64,000 nt of DNA. Origin: Parafrankia sp. EUN1f. Its GTDB lineage: Bacteria; Actinomycetota; Actinomycetes; Frankiales; Frankiaceae. Both the position numbers and the translations under genes were made by a program. Positions within the stretch are counted from its first letter, which is position 1. Each line of letters begins with the position of its first letter. The notes beneath the pieces were generated by a model that worked only from the letters and a program-made list of their open reading frames with translations, did not search any database and was not told where the DNA came from. Below are positions 32,932-36,783 of this stretch, piece after piece. Where the stretch lies: the NCBI RefSeq assembly GCF_000177675.1, contig NZ_ADGX01000035.1:1-64000 (forward strand), read 5' to 3'.

Positions 32932-33065
32932 CCGAGGTGTTCTGGCTCACCGCGCCAACTGGTCGCGGCTCACAGTGGCGGGACCGCCCCGGCCTTGGCG
33001 CCTCGCGCCGCACCGAAGTTCCCCTCGTTTCGCCTGGCAGGAATCGTGCCATGGGAGGGTGCCCC
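32932..33065 (-). promoter_or_regulatory. Cobalamin riboswitch of the main cob operon
   Basis: On the minus strand the aptamer core reads GGCGGTCCCGCCACTGTGA (32970-32988), followed by the B12 box GTGAGCCAGAACACC (32936-32950). Upstream (33000-33060) lie a GGGGCACCC-like 5' stretch and GAGGGGAACTTCGGTG, the expected P3-P5 elements. The order and spacing match the AdoCbl aptamer class (RF00174). It sits about 80 nt before the chelatase ATPase start and presumably represses the nine-gene operon when cobalamin is plentiful. Confidence 0.92.
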
Positions 33066-34690: not shown

Positions 34691-35609
34691 CCGAATACCC
34701 TTGGGACCCTTGGTGCCAGCGGGATGCTGGCACGTCGGCGGTATGGCCGGCGGAGAGTGCCCGCAGAGCGGTCAGGATGCCGGCGACGTCCGGCCAGGTC
34801 GGTGGGACGAGGCCGGCGCCAGCCGGGCGGTCGACCATGACGACCGGCACGCCGAGCAGCCGGGCCGCGTCCAGCTTGGCGACGGTCAGCGTCCCGCCGC
34901 TGTCCTTCGTCACCAGCACCCGTATGCCGTGCTCGCGCAGCAGCCGGGTCTCCCCGGCGACGGTGTAGGGACCACGGTCGAGCAGCACGGTGTGCCGCGG
35001 CGGCAGCGTGTCCGTCGGCGGATCCACCGCTCTGATCAGATAGTGCCGCTCGGCGTCCGCGGCGAACGGCGCGAGCTGGCGACGGCCGGTGGTCACGAAC
35101 ACGGCGCCGCCCGGCGGGCAGAGCTCCCGGGTCCGGTCGGCGGCCGCCGCCAGGTCGCCGACGCGATGCCAGTCATCACCGGGCCTGGCCTGCCAGCCGG
35201 GCCGTGCCAGGCGAAGCAGCGGCACCGCGGAACCGGCGCCGCCCGCATACGCACCGCCCGAGTGCGCGCCGCCCGAGTGCGCGCCGCCCGAGTGCGCGCC
35301 GCCCGAGTGCGCGCCGCCCGCCTCGTCCGGTGCGGGCGACGGGCCCGCGCAGGCGGCGACGGCGTGCGCGGACATCGTCGCCGCGAACGGATGCGTGGCG
35401 TCGACGACGGCGTCGACCGCCCGGTCACGCAGGAACGCGCGCAGGCCGGTGACTCCGCCGAAACCGCCGATCACGGTCTCCCCCGCCGGCAGCGCCGGGT
35501 CACGCACCCGGCCCGCCAGCGAGGTGACGACGTCCACGCCCGGTTCGGCGACGAGCGCGGCGGCGAGGTCACGGGCCTCGCGGGTGCCACCGAGGATCAG
35601 GACACGCAC
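34671..35609 (-). CDS. cobK: Precorrin-6A reductase
   Basis: This 312-aa CobK/CbiJ-family enzyme reduces precorrin-6A with NADPH. It contains [18 protein letters not shown] at the start, [53 protein letters not shown] and LVTKDSGG, then [19 protein letters not shown] near the C-terminus. An AHSGG pentapeptide array at about residues 100-120, encoded by a 15-bp tandem repeat, interrupts the middle of the protein in a loop. The GTG at 35609 overlaps the end of cobM by 13 nt, so the genes are coupled. The last ~20 residues overlap a dispersed repeat and are not conserved. Confidence 0.93.
35251..35310. repeat. 15-bp tandem repeat inside cobK
   Basis: Four successive copies of GCGCCGCCCGAGTGC (the first with one change) encode repeated AHSGG. 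Degraded flanking copies are visible on both sides. The unit preserves the frame. Confidence 0.85.
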
Positions 35610-36349
35610 GCGCGGTCCCGTTCGACCGAATACAGGTGGCTGTCGCGGAAGCCTGTCGCGGCGAGTGCGTCGCCGACGACGATGACCGCCGCCCGGCCGA
35701 TCCCGGCGGCACGCACGGCGGCGGCGATCGTGTCGAGCCGGCCGCGCAGCACGACCTGGTCCGGGCGTGACGCCCAGGCCACCACCGCCACCGGGGTGGC
35801 GGCGCCGTAAACCGGCAGCAGCTCCTCGACGACCGCCTCGATCCGCTGGATGGACAGGTGGATGACCATCGTCGCCCGGGCGGCACCCAGGGCCGCCAGC
35901 GTCTCCCCGGCCGGCATCGCGGAGGCGTTCTCGCTGGTCCTGGTCAGGACGACGCTCTGCGCCACACCCGGCACGGTCAGCTCCCGGCCCAGCTCCGCGG
36001 CAGCCGCGGCGTACGCGGGCACCCCGGGGCACACGTCGTAGCGGACGCCCGCGGCCTCCAGCCGGCGCATCTGCTCGGCGACGGCGCTGAACACCGACGG
36101 GTCACCGCTGCAGAGCCGGGCGACGTCCTGCCCGGCGGTGTCGGCCTCGACGAGATGGCCGACGATCTCGTCGAGGGTCAGTGGAGCGGTGTCGACGAGC
36201 CGGGCGCCCGGCGGGCAGTGCGCCAGCACGGCCGGGTCGACCAGGCTGCCCGCGTAGAGGCAGACCGGGGAGGCCGCGATCAGGTCCCGGCCGCGCAGGG
36301 TGAGCAGGTCCGCGGCACCGGGGCCGGCGCCGATGAAATGAACGGTGAT
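35597..36349 (-). CDS. cobM: Precorrin-4 C11-methyltransferase, with an apparent ATC start codon
   Basis: This 250-aa tetrapyrrole methylase methylates C11 of precorrin-4. The N-terminus must include [20 protein letters not shown], the SAM loop found in every CobM/CbiF, followed by [38 protein letters not shown] and [19 protein letters not shown]. No ATG, GTG or TTG lies in frame before residue ~41 (GTG at 36229), and starting there would delete the SAM loop. An ATC at 36349 has GGGAG exactly 7 nt upstream and gives the family's usual N-terminus ([11 protein letters not shown]), so initiation at AUC is proposed. The in-frame upstream sequence reaches a TGA at 36416-36418 that ends a small leader ORF. 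Loss of the start by mutation is the alternative. Confidence 0.85.
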
Positions 36350-36415
36350 CGCGTCGCTCCCTAGAACGGCATGGAGGGCCGTGCCACGGCCAGCCGGTGA
36401 GGCATCACGGCGGGC

Positions 36416-36442
36416 TCAGGAAAGTGGCGCAACGGTGGTCAC
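36416..36442 (-). CDS. Candidate 8-codon leader ORF between riboswitch and cobM
   Basis: GTG-ACC-ACC-GTT-GCG-CCA and two more codons precede a TGA stop (peptide VTTVAPLS). An almost perfect AAGGAGG (36448-36454) lies 5 nt upstream, by far the best ribosome site in the region. The ORF is in the same frame as cobM, with the TGA the only stop between them. The AAGGAGG can pair with the adjacent CCTCC, so it could be the riboswitch-controlled site. A leader peptide, or an older cobM start now cut off by a stop, are both possible. Confidence 0.45.
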   Translation of the reverse strand: MTTVAPLS

Positions 36443-36487
36443 TGGAGCCTCCTTGGAGGATTGTGCGTCCCCGCGAACGGATGGGCG

Positions 36488-36600
36488 TCATGACGGCGAA
36501 GTATCTGACTCACCCGCGGCGTCTCGCGGGCTCACAGTGGCGCAACCGCGCCGGACTTCCACCGGCTTCCTTGCGCCGTCACGAGGCCCCACCGTAGGTC
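36488..36600 (-). promoter_or_regulatory. Cobalamin riboswitch of the cobM-cobK unit
   Basis: On the minus strand the core GGTTGCGCCACTGTGAGCCC is followed by the B12 box GTGAGTCAGATACTTC (36497-36512). The P1 helix can form between GTGACGGCG (36574-36582) and CGCCGTCAT (36490-36498). GGAAGCCGGTGGAAGTCC supplies the P4-P5 part. It lies about 140 nt before the proposed cobM start and 50 nt before the leader ORF. Confidence 0.92.
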
Positions 36601-36783
36601 CGTACCGGATCGAGCGTCAACACCCGCTCCGGCGACCGACGTCTCCCGCCGCCCAGGCCGGGCTCAGAAGCTGCCGACGGCTTCCTTCTCGTCGTCGTAG
36701 ATCTCGAACCTGCGGCCTTCCGCGGCCGCCTTCGCGTCGCGGCCGCCCGAAACGAGCCGGGGCAGGTGACCCGACCGGAGCTG
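36601..36783. other. Spacer between the cobM riboswitch and a methyltransferase gene
   Basis: On the minus strand, the frame that continues past the stop of the 36784-37641 gene reads 39 more codons (GGRDAKAAAEGRRFEIYDDE near the end) to a TGA at 36664-36666. It looks like the C-terminus of a real protein but has no start. The cobM promoter should also lie here, though none is clear. Confidence 0.3.

Follow-up and report, generated by a model that had tools for sequence, protein, structure and literature searches.

The window, that is, the whole 64,000-nt stretch of DNA analysed, carries on its minus strand a cobalamin (B12) riboswitch followed by a very short open reading frame (mini-ORF) and the genes cobM and cobK. 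The cobM gene (36349-35597) encodes a precorrin-4 C(11)-methyltransferase (TIGR01465, 280.6 bits, above the cut-off), and cobK (35609-34671), which overlaps the end of cobM, encodes a (cobalt-)precorrin-6A reductase (NF005968/TIGR00715, above the cut-off); gene function names here and below rest on the cited profile matches. The mini-ORF (36442-36416) consists of a strong Shine-Dalgarno (SD) sequence, AAGGAGG (36454-36448), a 5-nt spacer (CTCCA), and the codons GTG ACC ACC GTT GCG CCA CTT TCC TGA, with the start GTG at 36442-36440 and the stop TGA at 36418-36416. This confirms on the minus strand the eight-codon frame (VTTVAPLS) that a first-pass annotation had described. That annotation had called its SD the best in the region; searching the 64 kb window on either strand gave no second AAGGAGG that has a start codon 4–9 nt downstream. 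The mini-ORF also proved to share the frame of cobM, as had been proposed, and its TGA is separated by 66 nt from the ATC at the cobM start position, with neither an NUGA nor a near overlap between the stop and the cobM start.

The aptamer (36595-36478, minus strand) is of the short cbtB-like type and belongs to Rfam RF00174, matching the covariance model with 36.5 bits against a gathering score of 31.5; its orthologue in genome G004, another species of the genus, scored 40.9 bits. A promoter-like TTGACG-18 nt-TACGGT (36591-36620, minus strand), read by eye, lies immediately 5' of it. Further upstream, approximately 50 nt at 36657-36708 look like a gene 3' end (RFEIYDDEKEAVGSF stop) and match other sites in the source and related genomes at about 90%. 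Another cobalamin riboswitch match, sub-threshold at 28.2 bits (32936-33023, minus strand), precedes a cobaltochelatase-type gene and has no clear uORF. When 20 other actinobacterial cobM loci were tested, none had a riboswitch within 2.5 kb of cobM.

The GTG of the mini-ORF lies 35 nt past the 3' end of the riboswitch match, and its ribosome site is the only strong one in the expression platform. The platform contains a hairpin of the cbtB-type motif (GGGGA-CGCACAA-UCCUC, 36456-36472, minus strand), detected by motif search and by the fold of G004, in which it appears as CGGGGA-CGCACAA-UCCCCG; the window has a single copy of the motif GGGACGCRYRATCC, at 36471. Both B12 riboswitches studied in Mycobacterium tuberculosis are translational OFF switches (PMC11260477), and because the only strong platform ribosome site is that of the mini-ORF, B12 should gate mini-ORF translation through this site. 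The earlier suggestion of a riboswitch-gated leader peptide is plausible in the placing of the ribosome site, which is conserved in G004, but not in the pairing it invoked: the CCTCC beside the SD, taken for an anti-SD, is CCCCG in G004. Folding of the window species and G004 gave no clear SD-masking switch. The conserved GACGCCCAUCC was considered as an SD mask, but in both species the minimum free energy structure is more stable than the masked fold, and we claim no switch.

Our analysis revealed an apparently very unusual start of cobM. The first-pass annotation had placed cobM 66 nt downstream at a weak start; the distance is right, but the codon is none of ATG, GTG and TTG. Alignment with relatives puts ATC (36349-36347, minus strand) at the homologous start codon position, the same as in G004, preceded by the SD GGGAG (36361-36357, minus strand). 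The stretch from the TGA of the mini-ORF to the GTG at 36229, at about cobM codon 41, holds no ATG, GTG or TTG in the cobM frame. A start at GTG 36229 was rejected, as the protein would lose TIGR01465 positions 1-38, the GAGPG loop among them, and its score would fall from 280.6 to 214.6 bits (cut-off 259.65). The ATC follows GGGAGCGACGCG, and in eight genomes of g6, a different genus of the same family (L006-L013), much the same context, including this SD, precedes an ATG. In 109 related cobM loci, a set that includes a few genomes counted twice, a standard codon stands exactly at the homologous start in 106 (ATG 72, GTG 31, TTG 3) and an ATG one codon later in one; the two loci left without a standard start there are G004, where the codon is likewise ATC, and L043, where starts are present 12–15 codons upstream.

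A lost start could mean that cobM is decaying and that the mini-ORF is debris, and the lack of an ATG, GTG or TTG is the observation that would speak for decay. However, the frame is intact, and cobM differs from that of G004 by 33 substitutions in 750 nt, distributed 5/2/26 over the codon positions; at a dN/dS of 0.065, the gene is under strong purifying selection in a pair of species sharing the ATC. Furthermore, the 164 nt around the SD and ATC (36370-36207) are identical in the two species, while the flanks differ by 4–15% (p about 0.001 for the coding part, a post hoc figure that assumes even spacing), and no other close copy of cobM was found in the source genome. We therefore consider decay very unlikely. 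The locus combines the sequence marks of an AUC-start gene, namely no nearby standard start, an ATC with a spaced SD, and a selected gene, and the start codon of cobM appears to be AUC, a mutated AUG that has kept its own SD. This conserved AUC start appears to be an unexpected and lasting oddity of the locus.

Among five other species of the genus examined, only G004 has the orthologous locus. There the mini-ORF keeps its SD, spacing, GTG, eight codons (VTTVPLLS) and TGA, with 3 substitutions in 27 nt, so that the conservation sought by the first-pass annotation was observed, but in a single other species. The stretch between TGA and ATC is the most diverged (10 of 69 nt, 2/3/5 by codon position), with a dN/dS of about 0.44 as against 0.065 in cobM. 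This divergence speaks against read-through of the TGA, which the same annotation had raised and which would yield, by low-level decoding of the stop, a CobM extended N-terminally from the GTG of the mini-ORF. In neither species has an indel disturbed the common frame of mini-ORF and cobM, cobM lacks a standard start, and a minor stop-suppression fusion has been reported for ppe2 of M. tuberculosis (PMC11260477), all of which would suit read-through. In contrast, the linker shows no protein constraint, no relative has such an N-terminal extension, and the old SD beside the ATC has been retained; we rejected the extended protein as the main reading and regard read-through as highly improbable.

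The history of the leader is indicated by comparison with genus g6, in which cobL, cobM and cobK all run in one direction. Relative to g6, the block at 34749-36362 is inverted in the window, which joins cobM-cobK to the riboswitch leader, and G004 is arranged in the same way. The inversion breakpoint is 13 nt 5' of the ATC, or one base upstream of the cobM SD. The mini-ORF had also been interpreted as the original start of cobM, interrupted by a stop codon. We reject this interpretation: the old initiation region is recognisable 66 nt downstream, intact as GGGAGCGACGCG followed by what was ATG and is now ATC, and the breakpoint is 5' of that region. The mini-ORF aligns instead with the cbtB start of cbtB-type leaders.

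Several comparisons point to cbtB as the source of this start. The window leader has the platform motif and aligns best to cbtB leaders, which make up the best nine of 37 aligned B12-riboswitch leaders; alternatives that make it a copy of a chl or bluB leader were discarded, as their alignment scores were below those of cbtB. A profile of the cbtB platform has its best match in the window at 36471-36428, and its best match in G004 at the same place, with E values of 0.19 (window) and 0.015 (G004) in searches of the whole sequences, each individually weak. The genes behind cbtB-type leaders encode CbtB (PF09489), with whose start the start of the mini-ORF aligns: one CbtB begins MTTPVAQP, compared with VTTVAPLS, and the gene behind the Frankia leader L169 begins ATG ACC ACA CCC GTT GCC, compared with GTG ACC ACC GTT GCG. 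Behind the window leader the frame ends after eight codons rather than encoding an intact CbtB, and a full cbtB following a leader of the window type, which would be an intermediate, was not found. A cbtB-like B12 riboswitch elsewhere in G004 (L180, G004:C9:70153) has a strong SD and a 7-codon ORF (MAARLII), possibly a second truncated cbtB start; a transporter-like gene follows after some hundred bases.

We favour, with somewhat better than even confidence, the explanation that a cbtB-type B12-riboswitch leader was captured and joined to cobM by inversion, with a truncated cbtB start surviving as the mini-ORF. A truncated cbtB behind the riboswitch is the simplest account, although the statistics are modest. 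Chance offers another, in which an SD-like sequence and a short frame arose at random, with neither history nor function. Eight codons are too few to test homology or coding constraint, and the 3 substitutions in 27 nt leave room for such an origin; against it, the sole AAGGAGG with a start codon in the window lies inside a B12 riboswitch platform, and the mini-ORF is conserved in G004 and aligned with CbtB starts. We give chance very little weight.

It is also conceivable that the mini-ORF evolved as a regulatory uORF, comparable to that of ppe2, in which the riboswitch gates the mini-ORF and ribosomes reach cobM by termination and reinitiation, either directly or via a second frame. The order of parts is as in ppe2 (PMC11260477), and tight coupling to the gene that follows is seen for ten uORFs downstream of B12 riboswitches in this group. 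A candidate for the second frame, ORF2 (GTG to TAG, 15 codons, 36408-36361, minus strand, in a different frame), is open in both species and leaves gaps of +7 nt on the mini-ORF side and +11 nt on the cobM side. However, its substitutions between the window and G004 show no codon-position bias (3/4/2), for which ORF2 was rejected as a coding peptide, the target codon is AUC, and there is no NUGA overlap. Moreover, in most studies translational coupling does little past 30–40 nt, with one reporting more than 50 nt (PMC12548453), and these published distances make direct coupling of the mini-ORF to the AUC across 66 nt unlikely. Taken together, an evolved uORF seems to us rather unlikely. Its strict form, in which the gated mini-ORF passes ribosomes, perhaps via ORF2, to an AUC that is unusable without them and cobM is wholly dependent on the mini-ORF, we consider improbable. 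A relay by ORF2, open in both species, is possible but unsupported; ribosome cover of the leader with less polarity, or independent low-level initiation at the AUC, may fit equally well.

Returning to the captured leader, we propose the following course of events. In the ancestral state, the riboswitch would have regulated how ribosomes reached the strong SD and start codon of cbtB, the gene of a cobalt transporter subunit. Inversion of the cobM-cobK block in a common ancestor of the two species would have brought cobM behind the cbtB-type leader, and all of cbtB except about its first eight codons would have been lost, leaving the mini-ORF as its truncated start. The mini-ORF probably still loads ribosomes at low B12, and through an open, ribosome-covered leader B12 could then adjust expression of the cobM-cobK operon, with cobM presumably initiating 66 nt further on at an AUC with its own SD GGGAG. 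In this account the sequence itself shows the mini-ORF, the riboswitch, the inversion, the ATC, the selection on cobM and the cbtB-like platform; the loss of cbtB, initiation at the AUC, and translation of the mini-ORF with its influence on cobM are inferred. The mini-ORF is real and largely explainable, probably as the truncated first ORF of a captured leader, and it may still recruit ribosomes in a B12-dependent manner. If confirmed, this would be a case of a riboswitch leader captured by another operon through inversion, whose truncated first ORF remains as a site of ribosome loading, whether accidental or useful, and also of a rare, evolutionarily kept AUC start in a metabolic gene.

This study also touches on the use of non-canonical start codons. 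Escherichia coli infC and pcnB are genes with starts of the AUU/AUC/AUA type, and Hecht et al. in 2017 reportedly dealt with all 64 start codons. To our knowledge there is no example of an AUC, AUU or AUA start codon in a cobM, and a literature search, which found the ppe2 precedent, returned neither a cobM leader peptide nor an AUC-started cobM. Rare bacterial AUC, AUU and AUA starts (as cited in PMC9094748) resemble the present case in that a selected gene carries AUH where its homologues start, and the SD before it is at a normal distance.

Cobalamin riboswitch leaders of the cbtB type are found in Frankiaceae (L163-L182, for example L169 and L182). The window leader shares with these cbtB-type leaders the aptamer, the hairpin GGGACGC..ATCC, the SD and the start position; in them the SD serves a full-length CbtB of 69–80 aa, whereas in the window it serves a frame of eight codons that is followed by cobM.

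The nearest known system is ppe2 of M. tuberculosis, in which a B12 riboswitch precedes the translated uORF uPPE2, whose stop and the ppe2 start overlap as AUGA, and reporters showed that ppe2 expression requires uPPE2 (PMC11260477). Both loci have a B12 riboswitch, an SD-led short platform ORF after the aptamer, and a gene that lacks a good start of its own. In contrast to uPPE2, the mini-ORF, of eight codons, stops 66 nt before an AUC with its own SD, and a relay from it to cobM would be hypothetical. In Frankiaceae and relatives, short ORFs also stand between a B12 riboswitch and a chelatase (chl) or cobD gene; the ten uORFs (L127, L132, L134, L135, L136, L139, L140, L142, L143 and L144) have 11–43 codons and end between an NUGA overlap, present in seven, and +5 nt from the gene start. 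They are similar to the mini-ORF in having a strong SD and a short ORF directly after the riboswitch, but are longer and tightly coupled, whereas the mini-ORF is not overlap-coupled and its leader is of another type. If confirmed, the mini-ORF would strengthen the case for short ORFs as a frequent relay from B12 riboswitch to gene in Actinobacteria, outside M. tuberculosis as well.

A uORF also precedes cobM, there without a riboswitch, in the Frankia-like genus g5 (the name Frankia is presumptive, as are the genus names for g1 and g6). In all 12 genomes (L014-L021, L024, L025, L027, L029), a GTG lies 11 nt past a conserved TGCTA-type -10 element, and the uORF is apparently leaderless. In 11 of the 12 it has 15–48 codons and a TGA that overlaps the cobM start, its frame being maintained across lengths of 44–143 nt, and the twelfth has an ATGA-linked chain of short ORFs. 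At L027 (the genome of L093), tandem repeats of the cobM start give such a chain before cobM. The mini-ORF is unusual among these uORFs in having no tight coupling, and for this reason it fits a truncated gene start better than an evolved uORF.
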